Origin: an uncultured Bacteroidota bacterium
GTDB taxonomy: Bacteria > Bacteroidota > Bacteroidia > 2-12-FULL-35-15
Assembly: GCA_903911435.1 (NCBI GenBank)
Contig: CAIWDF010000202.1
Location: forward strand, 1-59,388
Length of the DNA: 59,388 nt
Direction: 5' to 3'
In this document: positions 4,403 to 42,664 of the stretch, one piece after another
Layout of the letters: each line of letters begins with the position of its first letter
Numbering within the stretch: position 1 is the stretch's first letter
The notes under the pieces: model-generated
What the model saw: the letters and a program-made list of their open reading frames with translations, nothing else
Databases searched by the model: none
What the model was told of the DNA's origin: nothing
Position numbers and translations under genes: made by a program

Positions 4403-4480
4403 TTTCAAATAATTATCGAAAGATGTGAAATTATGAAAGTAAAAAAGTAATTTGAATTCAAAAAAAAACATAACCTTCAC

Positions 4481-4518
4481 TATATTTGTAAATGGTAAAA
4501 TCCATTAGTTTATATTTG
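4481..4518 (+). promoter_or_regulatory. Tandem TATATTTG boxes upstream of accC
   Basis: Two identical TATATTTG boxes lie at 4481-4488 and 4511-4518. The TTTG of the first could serve as -33 element for the second (spacer 22). They lie 40-77 bases before the biotin carboxylase start and suggest one or two promoters. Confidence 0.45.
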
Positions 4519-4557
4519 TCGCTTTAAAAATGTTGACGAATACTGTAACTTAGTGAT

Positions 4558-6042
4558 ATGAAAAAAATATTAGTAGCCAATAGAGGAGAAATAGCCCAGC
4601 GAGTGATGCGCTCGTGCAGAGAGATGGGAATAAAAACGGTGGCCGTTTATTCAGAGGCGGATAGAAATGCTCCGTTTGTAAAATATGCTGACGAGGCTGT
4701 ATGTATAGGTCCTCCCCCATCGAACCAATCGTATTTATTGGGTGATAAAATTATAGAAGTGTGTAAGCAACTCGATGTTGATGGAATTCATCCAGGATAT
4801 GGTTTTTTATCGGAGAATGCTGACTTTGCTGAAGCTGTGAAAAAAGCAGGAATAACATTTATTGGTCCTTCGGCAGAAGCGATGAATATAATGGGCGATA
4901 AGTTATCGGCTAAGGCCGCTGCTAAAAAATATAAAATCCCAATGGTTCCAGGCTCAGAAGGAGCCATATCGAGTGTTAAGGAAGGAAAGGAAATCGCATT
5001 GGCCACTGGATTTCCGATACTGATAAAAGCTAGCGCAGGTGGAGGTGGAAAAGGAATGCGTATAGTTGAAAATAGCGAAGAATTTGAAGAACAAATGAAG
5101 TTGGCTGTGAGCGAAGCTACTTCAGCTTTCGGGAATGGTTCGGTTTTCATTGAACGATATGTGGCTGGTCCTAGACATATTGAGATTCAAATATTGGGTG
5201 ACACGCATGGTAATATCGTTTATCTTTTCGAGCGCGAATGTTCTATTCAGAGGAGACACCAAAAAGTGATTGAAGAAGCACCTTCTTCGGTTTTAACTCC
5301 AGAAATAAGAAAAGCAATGGGTGAATGTGCTGTGAATGTAGGAAAAGCTTGTGATTATGTAGGCGCTGGTACAGTGGAATTTTTGTTGGATGAGAATAAA
5401 AAATTTTATTTCCTAGAAATGAATACTCGATTGCAAGTTGAACACCCCGTAACAGAAATGATAACAGGAATTGATTTGGTGAAAGAGCAAATAAAAGTTG
5501 CACGAGGTGAAAAATTATCGTTTAAGCAAGAAGATTTGAAGATTCATGGTCATAGTATAGAAGTGCGTGTGTATGCTGAGGACCCAACTAATAATTTTTT
5601 ACCTGATATAGGGAAACTATTAACCTACAAACGTCCGCAAGGTTTGGGGGTGCGCGTGGATGATGGATTTGAGGAAGGTATGGACATCCCTATTTATTAT
5701 GATCCAATGATTTCGAAACTCATTTCGTTTGGTAAAGATCGTGAAGAAGCCATAAATAGGATGATACGTGCTATAGATGATTATAAAATAATAGGTGTGG
5801 AAACTACTTTGCCTTTCTGTAAGTTTGTGTTGAAGCATGAATCATTTACTTCTGGAAATTTTGACACCCATTTTATTAATCATTATTACAAACCAGAAAT
5901 GCTTGATGTGGGGGACGAAGATGAAGCAACGATAGCTGCTCTTGTGGGAGCGAAATTGATTTCGGAAAGTAAGAGTGCATCATTGTTAGCAGTAAAAAAC
6001 AATGAAGGAGAAGTGTTGAAATGGAAAACAAACCGACTTTAA
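4558..6042 (+). CDS. accC: Biotin carboxylase subunit of an acyl-CoA carboxylase
   Basis: A 494-residue ATP-grasp enzyme that carboxylates the biotin of a carrier protein using ATP and bicarbonate, the first half-reaction of acetyl- or propionyl-CoA carboxylase. The N-terminal MKKILVANRGEIAQRV, HPGYGFLSENADF (residues 78-90), the glycine-rich ATP loop KASAGGGGKGMRIV (157-170) and the catalytic EMNTRLQVEHPVTE segment are all intact. It is somewhat longer at the C-terminus than the 450-residue E. coli AccC. No biotin carrier or carboxyltransferase gene is adjacent, so whether it serves acetyl-CoA, propionyl-CoA or another acyl-CoA is open. Confidence 0.92.
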   Translation: MKKILVANRGEIAQRVMRSCREMGIKTVAVYSEADRNAPFVKYADEAVCIGPPPSNQSYLLGDKIIEVCKQLDVDGIHPGYGFLSENADFAEAVKKAGITFIGPSAEAMNIMGDKLSAKAAAKKYKIPMVPGSEGAISSVKEGKEIALATGFPILIKASAGGGGKGMRIVENSEEFEEQMKLAVSEATSAFGNGSVFIERYVAGPRHIEIQILGDTHGNIVYLFERECSIQRRHQKVIEEAPSSVLTPEIRKAMGECAVNVGKACDYVGAGTVEFLLDENKKFYFLEMNTRLQVEHPVTEMITGIDLVKEQIKVARGEKLSFKQEDLKIHGHSIEVRVYAEDPTNNFLPDIGKLLTYKRPQGLGVRVDDGFEEGMDIPIYYDPMISKLISFGKDREEAINRMIRAIDDYKIIGVETTLPFCKFVLKHESFTSGNFDTHFINHYYKPEMLDVGDEDEATIAALVGAKLISESKSASLLAVKNNEGEVLKWKTNRL

Positions 6043-36681: not shown

Positions 36682-36755
36682 GGATCGGTAGTTCAGCTGG
36701 TTAGAATGCTGCCCTGTCACGGCAGAGGTCGCGGGTTCGAGTCCCGTCCGGTCCG
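36682..36755 (+). tRNA. tRNA-Asp (GTC)
   Basis: A complete cloverleaf. The acceptor GGATCGG pairs with CCGGTCC (one T-G pair), the D-arm region is GTTCAGCTGGTTAGAAT, the anticodon loop CTGTCAC carries GTC, and the T-arm is GCGGGTTCGAGTCCCGT. The discriminator base is G and CCA is not encoded. It has its own promoter and terminator. Confidence 0.97.
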
Positions 36756-36770
36756 CAAAAATTAAAAAAG

Positions 36771-36803
36771 AAAGCCAAGGTTAATTGTAACCTTGGCTTT
36801 TTC
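36771..36803. terminator. Terminator after tRNA-Asp (copy 1 of a duplicated element)
   Basis: AAAGCCAAGGTTA (36771-36783) and TAACCTTGGCTTT (36788-36800) form a 13-base stem with an ATTG loop and a T run. A near copy lies at 39869-39901. Confidence 0.85.
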
Positions 36804-37030
36804 TATTTAGTGGTGTTTGATGTGGACTTCCTTCCTATTATTTATTATTAAAAATCATTTTTGATGTTGAAGTCCTTTTGATCGTTGTAAACATTAATAA
36901 TTTATTGTAAACACTCGATTTTTCACCCAAACCACCTCCTTTCTAAGCCAAATTCTCCCTCTAAAGGCCATTTTACCCCCCAATCTAAAAAAAAGAATCT
37001 CGATTTTATAGGGCTTTTGAAGGAATGTTG

Positions 37031-37257
37031 ATTATTCTATTCAGAATAATGATTATCCTAACCAGAGTAATGATTATTCTATCCAGAATAATGATAATCC
37101 TATCCAGAATAATGATTATCCTAACAAGAATGATGATTATTCTATCAAGGGTAACGATTATCTTAACAAGAGTAATGATTATCCTGACTAGAATCATGAT
37201 TATCCTAACATGAATAACCATTATCCTTAAATGAATAATGAATATTCTTAAATAGGA
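37031..37257. repeat. Tandem array, 21-bp period, about 10.8 units
   Basis: Units begin at 37031 and every 21 bases after it up to 37241, without a single length change. The consensus is ATTATYCTAWCCAGAATAAT plus G. Each good unit is itself a dyad, ATTATTCT paired with AGAATAAT around 4 bases. Both strands are open for 60-80 codons only because the period is a multiple of three; the product would be an implausible Ile/Arg heptad. There are no unique spacers, so this is not CRISPR. Confidence 0.85.
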
Positions 37258-37517
37258 CAAAAAAAGCCGAGTCTATTCAATAAACTGTGTCAAAATCTTA
37301 AATTTGACACGAAATGGAATCGGTAAAACGAATTCCTGTTTCAGAATTCATTCCCAAAAAATTGATTTATTATAGGAGCAAAAATGGGTATGTAAATCAA
37401 TTTACTTATTGATTTCAATATTCTGTGAATTAATTAATTTTTACTAAGAATTATGTAATAATTATGTTTTGAAAGCTCAGACCTTTGCTGCAAAGCAAAT
37501 ATTCAAAGTTTTAAAAA
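37258..37517. other. Spacer with two dyads before the MlaE-MlaD chimera
   Basis: GTGTCAAA-N8-TTTGACAC (37287-37310) is a perfect 8-base dyad. AAATTGATTTA (37359-37369) and TAAATCAATTT (37393-37403) are perfect 11-base inverted arms around 23 bases. No gene is visible. The box AGACCTTTGC is at 37479-37488. Confidence 0.6.
37479..37488 (+). promoter_or_regulatory. AGACCTTTGC box before the MlaE-MlaD chimera
   Basis: AGACCTTTGC lies 29 bases before the start codon. The identical decamer precedes the old-yellow-enzyme gene (38084-38093). It may be a -7 region variant (CCTTTG) or a shared regulator site. Confidence 0.4.
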
Positions 37518-37994
37518 ATGAAATCAAAGGCACTTCATTCTCTACTTGTTGAAACAGGTGAACTTTATGGGTTTGTAGTTCGTTTTTTAAAAGAAGGTTT
37601 TAAACCAAGGTATGAGTTTGCCGAAGTAATATCGGATGATTTCAGCAAAATGATAAAATACATTAAATCGGGAAAAGGTTCGATAGGGGCGATACTCAAA
37701 GACACTACATTTTCTCATTCACTCAAGCAAACTCTTTTTAACTTACATTCTATTAGCGATTCGGTATCCATAATCTCAAGCAACTTCATAACCATTTCTG
37801 AAAACTTGAAAAACGGGAAAGGTTCTATTGGCGGATTACTCAAGGACACTACAATAGTTCTTGATCTTCAAGAAAGCATGAAAAGTATAAGGTCAGGTGC
37901 AGCGGGATTCAATGAGAATATGGAAGCCTTGAAACATTCTTGGCCTTTCAAAAAATATTTTCGTAATCAACAATATATCCCAATAAAAAAATGA
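37518..37994 (+). CDS. Apparent in-frame chimera of MlaE N-terminus and MlaD C-terminal tail
   Basis: A 158-residue open frame made of two unlike parts. Residues 3-38 (ALHSLLVETGELYGFVVRF, then LKEGFKPRYEFAEV) resemble the N-terminus of Bacteroidota MlaE-type lipid-transport permeases. Residues from about 40 on carry two GKGSIG-[AG]-[IL]-LKDTT repeats and the ending GFNENMEALKHSWPFKKYF, typical of the C-terminal tail of MlaD/MCE proteins. In Bacteroidota the order is usually mlaE-mlaF-mlaD, so one in-frame deletion across that operon would give exactly this gene, with the junction near base 37635. Permease helices, ATPase and MCE domain are all missing, so it cannot transport lipid. A natural small protein with chance resemblance is the alternative. 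Confidence 0.55.
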   Translation: MKSKALHSLLVETGELYGFVVRFLKEGFKPRYEFAEVISDDFSKMIKYIKSGKGSIGAILKDTTFSHSLKQTLFNLHSISDSVSIISSNFITISENLKNGKGSIGGLLKDTTIVLDLQESMKSIRSGAAGFNENMEALKHSWPFKKYFRNQQYIPIKK

Positions 37995-38136: not shown

Positions 38137-39234
38137 ATGAAATTATTAACACCAATTAAAATAGGGGAAACAAATTTATTTAATAGAATAGTAATGGCTC
38201 CAATGACTAGATGCAGAGCAATTGGAAATATTCCGAACGACTTGATGGCCGAATATTACGAACAACGAGCAAGTGCAGGATTAATTATAACGGAAGGTAC
38301 ATCTCCATCGGCTAATGGTCTAGGTTATGCTCGAATACCTGGAATATACAATAAAGAACAAGTGCAAGGCTGGAAAAAAGTTACTACTGCAGTTCATAAT
38401 AAGGAAGGAAAAATATGTATTCAAATAATGCATACAGGGCGCATAAGCCATCCGTTGAATATGCCTAAAGGAGCCGAAATACTTGCGCCTTCGGCAGTGA
38501 AAGCTTCTGGACAAATATGGACGGACGAAAAACAATTGCAGGACTTTGCTATACCTAAAGCAATGACTGCTGAAGACATCATTAATACAAAAGCAGAATT
38601 TGTTACTGCTGCTAAAAATGCTATAGAGGCTGGATTTGATGGAGTGGAATTGCATAGTGCGAATGGTTATTTGTTAGAACAATTTTTGTCACCCATAAGT
38701 AATATTCGCAAAGATGAATATGGGGTAAGTATTGAAAATCGTTGTCGATTTGTATTAGAAGTTGTAACTGCAGTGGCAGAAGCAATAGGGAAAGAAAAAA
38801 CAGGTATTCGATTGTCGCCTTATGGCGTTGCAAGCGATATGCCTCATTACCCTGAAATAGATGCAACGTATAACTATTTGTCAGAACAGCTTAATAAAAT
38901 TGATATTGCCTATATTCATTTGGTCGACCATTCGTCAATGGGTTCGCCCATTGTCCCATTAGAAATTAAACAGCGTATTCGAAGTAATTTTAAAAACACA
39001 ATTATTCTTTGTGGAGGTTATGATAAGATGAGAGCAGAAGAAGATATAAAAAGCGGTATCTGCCAATTGATTGGTTTTGGCCGACCATTTATTAATAATC
39101 CTGATTTTGTAGATCGATTGACACATAATTTGCCTTTGTCGGATAAACTTTCAGTTGATATGTTTTATTCCGCAAGTGAAGAAGGGTACACAGATTATCC
39201 AGTTTACAATGCTACAAAAAAGCAAACAGTTTAG
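38137..39234 (+). CDS. Old yellow enzyme family alkene reductase
   Basis: A 365-residue FMN-dependent ene-reductase of NemA/OYE type that reduces activated C=C bonds (enones, quinones, nitro compounds) with NAD(P)H in the cytosol. The N-terminal NRIVMAPMTRCRA carries the FMN Thr24. His173, Asn176 and Tyr178 in ELHSANGYLLEQF are the substrate-binding and proton-donor set. LIGFGRPFINNPD is the phosphate-binding end. The usual YGGS-ENR loop reads YGVSIENR, a small variation. It is 11 bases upstream of the SOUL gene, so they form a unit. Confidence 0.93.
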   Translation: MKLLTPIKIGETNLFNRIVMAPMTRCRAIGNIPNDLMAEYYEQRASAGLIITEGTSPSANGLGYARIPGIYNKEQVQGWKKVTTAVHNKEGKICIQIMHTGRISHPLNMPKGAEILAPSAVKASGQIWTDEKQLQDFAIPKAMTAEDIINTKAEFVTAAKNAIEAGFDGVELHSANGYLLEQFLSPISNIRKDEYGVSIENRCRFVLEVVTAVAEAIGKEKTGIRLSPYGVASDMPHYPEIDATYNYLSEQLNKIDIAYIHLVDHSSMGSPIVPLEIKQRIRSNFKNTIILCGGYDKMRAEEDIKSGICQLIGFGRPFINNPDFVDRLTHNLPLSDKLSVDMFYSASEEGYTDYPVYNATKKQTV

Positions 39235-39245
39235 TAAGTAGATGT

Positions 39246-39845
39246 ATGAAAATAGTCTTAATAGTAGCATGTATATTACTTGGACTATTTTTCGTATTTC
39301 AAATTTATATATCTATGGCAACAGCTAAATCAGAAACACAGGCTTACAAAGTAATTAAGGAAGAACAAGAGTTTGAAATTAGATATTATCCTTCGGCTAC
39401 AATTGCAACCATTACTTCGTCAGCTAGAACGTATAAAGAACTAGGAAGTACGGGCTTTAGTAAGCTGGCAGGGTATATTTTTGGTGGGAATAAAGAAAAT
39501 AAACAAATTGCAATGACTTCTCCTGTCCACATGGATATAAGTGATACAGGGTCGACTATGAGTTTTGTGATGCCTTCCAATTATACGAAAGACAATTTGC
39601 CATTGCCCAACAATAAGGATATAATTCTTAATACTACTCCAGATGAATATGTGGCTGCTATTAGGTTTGGTGGATTTGCATCAACTGAGCAGATTATTAA
39701 GCACACTGAAATACTAGAAAACGCTTTAAAAAAACACCACCTATTTTACTACGGACACTTCCGTTTTTTAGGATATAATCCACCTTTCCAATTATTAGGA
39801 AGAAGAAACGAAATTATTGTAGCAATAAATTGGAATTCAAAATAA
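39246..39845 (+). CDS. SOUL family heme-binding protein
   Basis: A 199-residue protein with an N-terminal hydrophobic segment (IVLIVACILLGLFFVFQI) that anchors or exports it, followed by a complete SOUL/HBP domain: YKVIKEEQEFEIRYYPSATIA, GFSKLAGYIFGGN, IAMTSPVHMD, MSFVMPSNY and FRFLGYNPPFQLL. SOUL proteins bind heme or tetrapyrroles; the role in bacteria is not settled. Cotranscription with an ene-reductase suggests handling of heme or an electrophilic compound, which is inference. A terminator follows at 39869. Confidence 0.9.
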   Translation: MKIVLIVACILLGLFFVFQIYISMATAKSETQAYKVIKEEQEFEIRYYPSATIATITSSARTYKELGSTGFSKLAGYIFGGNKENKQIAMTSPVHMDISDTGSTMSFVMPSNYTKDNLPLPNNKDIILNTTPDEYVAAIRFGGFASTEQIIKHTEILENALKKHHLFYYGHFRFLGYNPPFQLLGRRNEIIVAINWNSK

Positions 39846-39868
39846 ATCGTAGAATAAAATCACAAAAG

Positions 39869-39901
39869 AAAGCCAAGGTTAATAGTTAACCTTGGCTTTT
39901 T
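39869..39901. terminator. Terminator between SOUL and fdhA (copy 2 of a duplicated element)
   Basis: AAAGCCAAGGTTAA (39869-39882) and TTAACCTTGGCTTT (39886-39899) form a 14-base stem with loop TAG, flanked by A and T tracts so that it works for both convergent genes. The similarity to the tRNA-Asp terminator continues about 40 bases further. Confidence 0.85.
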
Positions 39902-39943
39902 CTATTGAATGATGTTTGGGTGTAGCTTCCCTCCTAATAATTA

Positions 39944-42664
39944 CTAATTGTTTTTGTACTGTCCTTTGCTTTTACGGATGGTTACCGCCACTATCTTGTA
40001 CTCAGGACACAAAGCTTCGCTGTCGTGTTCATCGCTGGTAATCATGTTCAGCATTAAATCAGGGAAATGGAAAGTAGTACTTAAAATTCCTGCTCTCACC
40101 TGGTCAGTTATTTTTGCTTTGATATCTACCTTGCCTCGTGGCGACTCCACACAAACCATGTCTCCATCGTTGATGAGATGTTTGGATGCATCTGCTGCAT
40201 TCATCATCAATACGTCTTCAGTAAGAATATCCACATTACCCGTTCTGCGGGTCATGGTGCCTGAGTTGTAATGTTCCAATTCTCTATTAGTAGTGAGTAT
40301 GTAAGGATATTCCTTGTCGTGAGTAGTGGTTTCGTTGCTTTCTTTATAATCGAAATAATGAAACTTTCCTTTTCCGCGATGGAATTTTTTCTTGTGAAGT
40401 ATTTGTGTATCGCCTCCACTTTTTAATACAGGCCATTGTTTTCCATTCTCTCCAAGGTCTTTCCATTTCACACCTGCAAAGAAAGGAACGATTTTAGAAA
40501 TCTCTTCGAGCATCGTATCGGGCTTAAACTCGGGTTGAGGGTATCCCATTTTGTTCATGATGTCGACCATGATTTCACCATCACTTTTGGTTCCCGATAG
40601 AGGTTCAACTACTTTCTGAACACGCTGAATTCTGCGCTCGGCATTGGTAAACGTGCCGCTCTTTTCGAGGAAGGATGCGCCTGGTAAAACAACAGTAGCA
40701 TATTTAGCGGTTTCGGTGATGAACAATTCTTGTAACACAAGCAATTCAAGATTTTCCATTGCTTCTATCACTTTCTTGGTGTTCGGGTCGGTTTGTACTA
40801 CATCTTCGCCCATCAACCAAAGTGCTTTCAACTTACCGTCAATAGAGGCTTCGAACATTTCAGGAATTTTTAATCCTTTGCTGAATGGTATTTTTGTTTG
40901 ATAGAATGAAGCATATTCCTTATTTATTTCAGGGTCGTACGAACTCATGTAACCTGCACCCAAGTGCGGTTGACAACCCATGTCGGCAGCGCCTTGCACA
41001 TTATTTTGTCCACGAAGGGGGTTCACCCCGACTCCTTTTCTTCCAATGTTTCCGGTAATCATAGCTAAATCGGAAATCAACATCACGGTGTACGAACCTT
41101 GAGAATGTTCGGTAACACCTAAACCATGAAAAGACATAGCACTGCCTGCTTTGGCATAAGCCAAGGCCGCTTGTTTTACCAAGTTTCTGTCTACACCTGT
41201 TATCAACTCCATAGCAGCAATGTCTGTTTTCAGAATCTGTGTGCGGAAATCGACATATCCTTCGGTGCGGCTATTGATAAATTCTTTTGCTTCTAAACCT
41301 TCGGAGATGATGAAATAAAGCATCATATTCAACAAGGCTACGTTGGTGCCCGGTTTCAATTGTAAGTGAATGGTGGCGTAACGTGCAAGCTCAGTCTTAC
41401 GAGGGTCAATAACGATAGTGGTTTTGCCCTTCATGGCAAACTGCTTGAGTTTAACTCCTGTTACAGGATGTGCATCGGTTGGGTTAGCACCAATAATCAT
41501 GATGCAATCCGTATGTTTAATGTCTTCTACCGAGTTGGTAGCAGCTCCTGTACCAAATGCTCTCTGCATACCATTAGCAGTAGGTGAGTGACAAACACGA
41601 GCGCAACAATCAATATTATTAGTACCAATTACAGCACGAATAAATTTCTGCATCAAGTAATTCTCTTCGTTGGTACAGCGTGCAGAAGAAATACCAGCAA
41701 TGGAATCGGCACCGTGCTTTTGTTTTATGGCTGTTAATTTTTCTGCAATAAAAGTATAGGCTTCGTCCCAAGTGGCTGGCTCCAACACCCCATTCCGTCT
41801 GATGAGAGGAGTTCGCAAACGATCGGGATGATTATAGAAAGAGAAGGCATACCGACCTTTAAGACAAGTGTGTCCTTGATTTACTTCGGCATTGTAAGGA
41901 GCCTGAATTGATTTTACTTTTCCGTTCAACACGGCAACATCAAGGTTGCAACCTACACCACAATAGGTACAAATGGTGCGAACTTTTTTATCAGCAACAA
42001 TCGATTTCGATTCGAACACATCGGAAATGGCGGAAGTAGGACAAGCCTGAGCACAAGCGCCACAGCTTACACAATCGGAATCGAAAAAAGATTTGTTATC
42101 ACTCTTTACGATATGACTGTCGAAACCACGACCAGCCATGGTAAGCACCATTTCACCCTGTACTTCATCACAAGCACGCACACAACGAAAACAATTGATG
42201 CACTTCGAAAAATCGGAAGTCATGTACGGATGACTCAAATCTTTTTTTCGGTCGAGATGTGTTTTGCCTTCGGGATAACGCACATCGCGCACTCCCACTT
42301 TAGCAGCAACAGTTTGCAATTCGCAATTATTGTTTACCTCGCAAGTAAGGCAATCTAGAGGATGGTCGGTGAGTACCAATTCAACAATGTTCTTACGCAA
42401 CTTGACAATGCGGTCGCTATGGGTATTGATAAACGAATTTGGAATAACGGGAGTGTGACAAGAAGCCATTGATTTAGCAGGGCCATTTGCTGTAAGCGCT
42501 ACATCCACGCTGCATACACGGCATGAACCAAAAGGGTCGAGGTTGGGTGCATCGCAAAGTGTAGGAACAAAATCGTTGCCTAAATGTCGTTTCACAAACT
42601 TAAGAATGGTTTCTCCTTCAATAATCGGATAGACTTTATCGTTGATGGTTGCAGTAAGTTCCAT
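39944..42664 (-). CDS. Formate dehydrogenase catalytic subunit (NAD-linked type)
   Basis: A 906-residue molybdenum or tungsten bis-MGD enzyme that oxidises formate to CO2. The N-terminal ferredoxin-like part carries a 2Fe-2S set (Cys37, Cys48, Cys51, Cys69), a His/Cys site (HPLDCLTCEVNNNC, 101-114) and two 4Fe-4S sets (155-165 and 198-208). The catalytic domain begins with CTYCGVGC (232-239). The position that is selenocysteine in E. coli FdhF is Cys358 (CCARVCHSP), so this is the Cys form. It is coded with a NuoE-NuoF fusion and FdhD, the arrangement of cytosolic NAD-dependent formate dehydrogenases, which feed formate electrons into NADH. Confidence 0.92.
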   Translation of the reverse strand: MELTATINDKVYPIIEGETILKFVKRHLGNDFVPTLCDAPNLDPFGSCRVCSVDVALTANGPAKSMASCHTPVIPNSFINTHSDRIVKLRKNIVELVLTDHPLDCLTCEVNNNCELQTVAAKVGVRDVRYPEGKTHLDRKKDLSHPYMTSDFSKCINCFRCVRACDEVQGEMVLTMAGRGFDSHIVKSDNKSFFDSDCVSCGACAQACPTSAISDVFESKSIVADKKVRTICTYCGVGCNLDVAVLNGKVKSIQAPYNAEVNQGHTCLKGRYAFSFYNHPDRLRTPLIRRNGVLEPATWDEAYTFIAEKLTAIKQKHGADSIAGISSARCTNEENYLMQKFIRAVIGTNNIDCCARVCHSPTANGMQRAFGTGAATNSVEDIKHTDCIMIIGANPTDAHPVTGVKLKQFAMKGKTTIVIDPRKTELARYATIHLQLKPGTNVALLNMMLYFIISEGLEAKEFINSRTEGYVDFRTQILKTDIAAMELITGVDRNLVKQAALAYAKAGSAMSFHGLGVTEHSQGSYTVMLISDLAMITGNIGRKGVGVNPLRGQNNVQGAADMGCQPHLGAGYMSSYDPEINKEYASFYQTKIPFSKGLKIPEMFEASIDGKLKALWLMGEDVVQTDPNTKKVIEAMENLELLVLQELFITETAKYATVVLPGASFLEKSGTFTNAERRIQRVQKVVEPLSGTKSDGEIMVDIMNKMGYPQPEFKPDTMLEEISKIVPFFAGVKWKDLGENGKQWPVLKSGGDTQILHKKKFHRGKGKFHYFDYKESNETTTHDKEYPYILTTNRELEHYNSGTMTRRTGNVDILTEDVLMMNAADASKHLINDGDMVCVESPRGKVDIKAKITDQVRAGILSTTFHFPDLMLNMITSDEHDSEALCPEYKIVAVTIRKSKGQYKNN

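Follow-up and report, generated by a model that had tools for sequence, protein, structure and literature searches.

Behind rimO and a tRNA-Asp gene, in the chromosome of an uncultured Bacteroidota bacterium, there is a small open reading frame that appears to be put together from pieces of two genes of one operon, namely the start of the gene for the permease MlaE and the end of the gene for MlaD. This fusion ORF (hereafter, the scar) lies in a window of 59,388 nucleotides, which is the whole stretch of DNA that was analysed. Between 36 and 40 kb of the window no mlaF is present, the neighbours being rimO, the tRNA-Asp, and the OYE and SOUL genes. The main features are the following:

36682–36756, forward strand: tRNA-Asp (gtc), left neighbour of the block that contains the scar (ARAGORN); also found behind rimO in the relative G014.
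36758–36878, forward strand: left copy of an imperfect direct repeat with a terminator-like hairpin (AAAGCCAAGGTTA..TAACCTTGGCTTT).
37481–37488, forward strand: ACCTTTGC, a box resembling the Bacteroidota -7 promoter element, 29 nt before the ATG.
37518–37994, forward strand: the scar, 158 aa, ATG to TGA.
37518–37625, forward strand: mlaE' half, codons 1-36 of the permease gene; 69% identity to the MlaE of G014 and G012 (aa 1-42).
37626–37994, forward strand: 'mlaD half, the C-terminal helical tail from about Val206 of MlaD to the stop; 57-62% gapless identity to the MlaD of G012 and G014.
39856–39967, forward strand: right copy of the same direct repeat.

The first-pass annotation had described an intact frame here, whose first 38 residues were taken as the start of MlaE and the remainder as the GKGSIG-repeat tail of MlaD. 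The frame is indeed present as described. The MlaE origin stands as well, given that residues 1-42 are 69% identical to the MlaE N-terminus of both G014 and G012 (E 4e-16 and 2e-15, respectively, by direct alignment), but not the length of that part, as the codon alignment places the junction at residue 36. The assignment of the rest is borne out by both GKGSIG repeats (aa 52-57 and 100-105), which are part of the MlaD tail, and by the gapless match of residues 28-158 to the MlaD C-terminus of the same two operons (62% identity in G014 and 57% in G012; E 1e-52 and 8e-50). The MlaD half also aligns without any gap with 14 intact MlaD proteins, up to residue 151. In a search of 59 genomes (that of the host and those of its relatives), residues 27-153 hit ORFs of ~325-335 aa in their C-terminal part; residues 1-42, as a separate match, hit the start of ORFs of ~255 aa, which in G014, G012, G021, G009 and G003 are located on the same contig, ~2 kb further upstream. 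The ORFs matched by the two halves are MlaE and MlaD according to Pfam, with an ABC ATPase (MlaF) in between, and in G014, G012, G009, G021, G003 and G016 both halves match two genes of one operon; aligned separately, as had been proposed as a check, each half leads to Mla proteins of that one and the same operon.

The join lies after codon 36 (GAA, ...PRYEFAE; Glu36 of MlaE) and before GTA (Val37, VISDDFS...), the latter side aligning with VITGDLS of MlaD, at about its Val206. The frame is preserved across the junction, which is codon-clean and whose position is uncertain by 1-2 codons because the nearest relatives are divergent. What the MlaE half encodes is an N-terminal amphipathic (IF1-like) helix. 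The defining domains of both parent proteins are missing, and Pfam returned only sub-threshold matches for the scar: there is no match to PF02405 (MlaE permease), a domain that starts at residue 38 of the intact MlaE, past the 36 retained residues, and none to PF02470 (MCE), which spans residues 45-122 of the intact MlaD, all of them deleted. Furthermore, the highest 19-residue mean hydropathy is 0.99 in the scar, versus 2.1-2.2 in intact MlaD, and the scar has no transmembrane helix.

Could the ORF simply belong to an ordinary and widespread family of small proteins? Those sub-threshold Pfam matches are all that could be brought forward for such a family, and they lend it no support. The fused ORF was not found among 59 relatives, 36 genomes of the genus (the two sets overlap), 395 class-wide genomes and 80 genome-contig loci, which amounts to ~450 other Bacteroidota genomes searched. 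The close homologues of its C-terminal half are all full-length MlaD ORFs of ~320-350 aa; the exceptions are L014, truncated at a contig end, L048, where the frame is split, and some shorter and distant MCE-like ORFs with weak matches. Since the searches of relatives, genus and class gave no homologue with the fused architecture, the choice that had been left between a deletion scar and a widespread family falls on the scar, and the family has practically no probability left.

The operon that supplies both halves is found intact, as mlaE-mlaF-mlaD, in two genomes of the same genus, G014 (contig C166, equal to L113 9354-11846) and G012 (contig C347, equal to L114 8196-10696), so the suggested comparison with the mlaEFD genes of relatives has provided the parent. 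With respect to them, the missing stretch is ~2.0 kb long (~2,016 bp in G014 coordinates, 9723-11738 of L113). Comparison with these intact operons shows that a deletion of ~2.0 kb took mlaE from codon 37 onwards, the whole of mlaF, and mlaD up to about codon 205, joining the ends in frame. A short-repeat array (GGAACGGTTCCCACGG-like) is located directly behind mlaD in G014 (L113 8892-9353). The scar shares with the Bacteroidota mlaE-mlaF-mlaD operon the order and orientation of its genes, the MlaD tail with its GKGSIG repeats and the FNENMxAL...WPFKKYF end, and differs from it in lacking the MlaE permease domain, MlaF, and the transmembrane helix and MCE domain of MlaD, as well as in its chromosomal site. 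Sequence comparison thus supports the central proposal, namely that a deletion across mlaE-mlaF-mlaD gave rise to an in-frame mlaE'-'mlaD fusion.

In-frame deletion fusions between neighbouring genes join the start of the 5' gene, with its initiation site, to the 3' end of the downstream gene. The scar resembles other chimeric genes made by deletion in precisely this arrangement; unlike them in general, it has also changed its site and undergone accelerated change. No report of an MlaE-MlaD fusion was found in the literature, and the scar is a new example of this known kind of event. There is a further remnant within the genus: G028 carries on contig C51 (L145, ~4479-4802) a lone relic of the MlaD C-terminus (LNKSMENVKESSADFNENIEALKYSWHFKKYFKKQ), without mlaE or mlaF. 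It is comparable to the scar as a leftover of the MlaD C-terminus without the operon, and unlike it in that only the last ~50 residues are recognisable, no MlaE part is present and the frame is broken upstream. Together with the scar, the relic implies that remnants of this operon were left behind by its partial loss on at least two occasions within the genus. The G028 relic is preceded by a repeated non-coding region. Two other candidates were discarded as further scars, since in G031 the mlaE operon is split over two contig ends and in G032 it is cut at a contig start.

The host assembly has 4.19 Mb in 312 contigs and is 99.6% complete; apart from itself, the scar has no match in it at E<=1. 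Pfam searches found one MlaE, on contig C278 and with its own MlaF, and one MlaD, on contig C90, adjoining a gene that resembles an N-acetylmuramoyl-L-alanine amidase (sequence judged by eye). Neither of the two matches the scar; they represent a different Mla set. A second intact copy of the operon from which the scar derives was sought by genome searches and discarded. The deleted sequence is absent from the genome as far as the MlaE and MlaD domains are concerned, which were the ones searched. As there is no other match to the scar, and as C278 and C90 carry a different set, the second operon has been lost apart from the scar.

The position of the scar complicates the simplest course of events. 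The intact operons of G014 and G012 are flanked on one side by a patatin-phospholipase gene and on the other by a small gene, behind which come the genes for Usp, a Crp-type response regulator and a histidine kinase. On contig C1 of the host these flanking genes occur in unchanged order, with the patatin gene and the small gene 6 bp apart, versus ~3.2 kb in G014. At this empty site (L144 10603-10610, in G000:C1, G000 being the host), the last residues of the small gene, which encodes 130 aa, differ from those of its relatives, which suggests a deletion endpoint inside the end of that gene. The scar, for its part, is placed behind rimO and the tRNA-Asp, and the matching neighbourhood in G014 has no mla genes; neither its upstream nor its downstream non-coding flank shows homology to the flanks of the operon. 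Hence, of the single deletion across mlaE-mlaF-mlaD that had been put forward, the deletion itself stands, both halves coming from one operon, but not its character as a single event in place: an in-place deletion at the ancestral site is ruled out by the empty site on C1. With the usual site intact but empty and the scar elsewhere, a second rearrangement is needed, either a relocation or the loss of the old site after a second copy had been made. The fused piece would have changed place, or derived from a second copy, in an order of events that we can only infer.

The two repeat copies bracket a block of ~3.1 kb with the scar, the OYE gene and the SOUL gene, and their hairpin occurs only twice in the whole genome, both times here; the direct repeat pair may mark an insertion or duplication event. 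Just upstream of the scar, at 37029-37253, there is a 21-bp tandem array of ~9.5 copies plus a variant stretch (TGATTATCCTATCCAGAATAA), which is open in both directions as low-complexity ORFs and probably non-coding. Downstream, 38137-39845 is occupied by the gene for an OYE-type flavin oxidoreductase and then by that for a SOUL protein. The OYE gene is patchy in the class (~74% in distant families and in G004); in G083, too, an OYE gene has a SOUL fragment close by. One reading is that horizontal transfer brought in the block made up of repeat, array, scar, OYE, SOUL and second repeat, with insertion at the terminator of the tRNA-Asp, and that the operon in it was on arrival either complete or reduced to the fusion; this reading concerns the route only and is compatible with a decaying remnant. 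Besides the imperfect repeats around the block and the hairpin confined to them, the missing ortholog of OYE in the eight relatives tested, its patchiness and a tree position of the scar that is not settled among the clades of the genus point in this direction. Nonetheless, G014 and G012 are the closest genomes for both halves and, among those compared, the nearest for rimO and the flanking genes as well; the scar is present in 0 of the 5 OYE loci examined, and a placement as sister to L002/L003 or to G016 is rejected (AU 0.03). Altogether this makes the route a rather doubtful one. Two related ideas were dropped: third-position G+C fails to tell the scar apart from the native mla genes, and for integration at the 3' end of the tRNA-Asp the window offers no second copy of the tRNA end, even though the terminator region behind it is duplicated.

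Regarding the evolutionary rate, the two halves behave differently. In relative-rate comparisons with G014, with L003 as outgroup, the MlaD half has 25 changes unique to the scar versus 6 in G014 (chi2 11.65), while the MlaE half, of only 36 residues, has 3 versus 2 and is not accelerated. The MlaD half has evolved ~3 times faster than its intact relatives, and 13 of the 51 columns that are fixed in seven intact operons have changed in it. The ratio d(G000,G014)/d(G014,G012) is 5.1 for this half, versus 1.3-2.1 for rimO and the near neighbours of the operon, a comparison that is not perfectly clean because the farther flanking genes g836, g265 and g804 give high ratios too (4.7-22). The MlaD half is, then, under relaxed constraint. 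This is unexpected for pieces of a working operon and bears on another explanation, an assembly artefact in which the contig brings together the ends of an operon that is really intact. A draft as fragmented as this one, with 312 contigs, leaves room for such a join; however, the missing MlaE and MCE domains are nowhere else in an assembly that is 99.6% complete, and the pieces stand at a site unrelated to the usual one of the operon, with repeats and neighbours of their own, so that an artefact is very improbable. We consider it probable that the scar is the leftover of a second, Bacteroidota-type mlaE-mlaF-mlaD operon, deleted in frame, displaced or derived from a second copy, and likely decaying.

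Despite this acceleration, the 158 codons contain 0 stops and 0 frameshifts or indels. In neutral simulations the frame stays open in 20-31% of the runs, before indels are counted, and the replacements in the scar are milder than the simulated ones (P 0.01-0.03). For the scar branch, omega = 1 is likewise rejected under a branch codon model (LRT 11.1), with synonymous sites that are saturated and a branch that partly predates the deletion. The relaxation of constraint therefore need not amount to its complete loss. As for expression, the promoter-like box noticed in the first reading is genuinely of a kind that precedes genes in this genome: 6 of the 9 occurrences of ACCTTTGC in 79 kb are within 100 nt before an ATG (P ~1.5e-7), and the enrichment persists when the scar and its neighbour are left out (P 5e-5). 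With the box kept and no stop or frameshift, the 158-aa product may still be made.

What would such a product look like? The N-terminal ~30 residues of the E. coli MlaE make up IF1, an amphipathic helix that is located in the cytoplasmic leaflet and touches the transmembrane helices of MlaD (PMC7790496). The MlaE part retained in the scar corresponds in position to this interfacial helix of the E. coli MlaFEDB complex (PMC7790496), and its amphipathic moment is kept (1.32 in the scar versus 1.27 in the MlaE of G014); unlike that complex, the scar has no transport module, and the MlaD tail attached to its IF1 would be on the wrong side of the membrane. The predicted product would consist of the amphipathic N-terminal helix of MlaE followed by the helical tail of MlaD, which is normally periplasmic and which, having no transmembrane helix, would stay in the cytoplasm. 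Having neither the channel of MlaE nor the ATPase MlaF, and no MCE domain or transmembrane helix, any such product cannot transport lipid, and it most likely does nothing essential. The AlphaFold model consists of helices only, with a low confidence (pLDDT 48) that makes it too poor to interpret.

This leads to the alternative of a fusion retained as a new small protein, with a helix that binds the inner membrane and a cytoplasmic bundle derived from MlaD, for example modulating the remaining MlaEF/MlaD by competing for the contact between IF1 and MlaD. The open frame behind a promoter-like box, the mild replacements and the rejection of omega = 1 are in its favour, and so are the preserved amphipathic moment and the contact of IF1 with the MlaD transmembrane helices in E. 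coli (PMC7790496). It has to be reconciled, however, with a fusion that exists in one genome only, a strongly accelerated MlaD half that has lost 13 of the 51 fixed columns, a tail confined to the wrong compartment and a predicted structure of helices only at pLDDT 48, and we regard it as unlikely. The same holds for its fullest form, a gene born by deletion whose 158-aa protein is expressed and kept on the inner face of the inner membrane, with the MlaD tail in the cytoplasm, and affects the remaining Mla set, which we would call quite improbable. Retention as a new protein is therefore possible but less likely than slow decay, and a slowly decaying remnant, possibly still transcribed, is the likeliest reading of the scar.

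The loss suggests that, where there is another MlaEF/MlaD set, this second Mla operon can be done without. The scar is also a cleanly documented case of an in-frame fusion left when an operon was lost: intact relatives are available, the junction can be located and the change in evolutionary rate can be measured. It is a natural case for asking how long a fusion ORF that bears a promoter persists before it decays or is recruited. Should the ORF prove to be expressed and retained, it would exemplify how a bacterium can gain a new small protein through a deletion.
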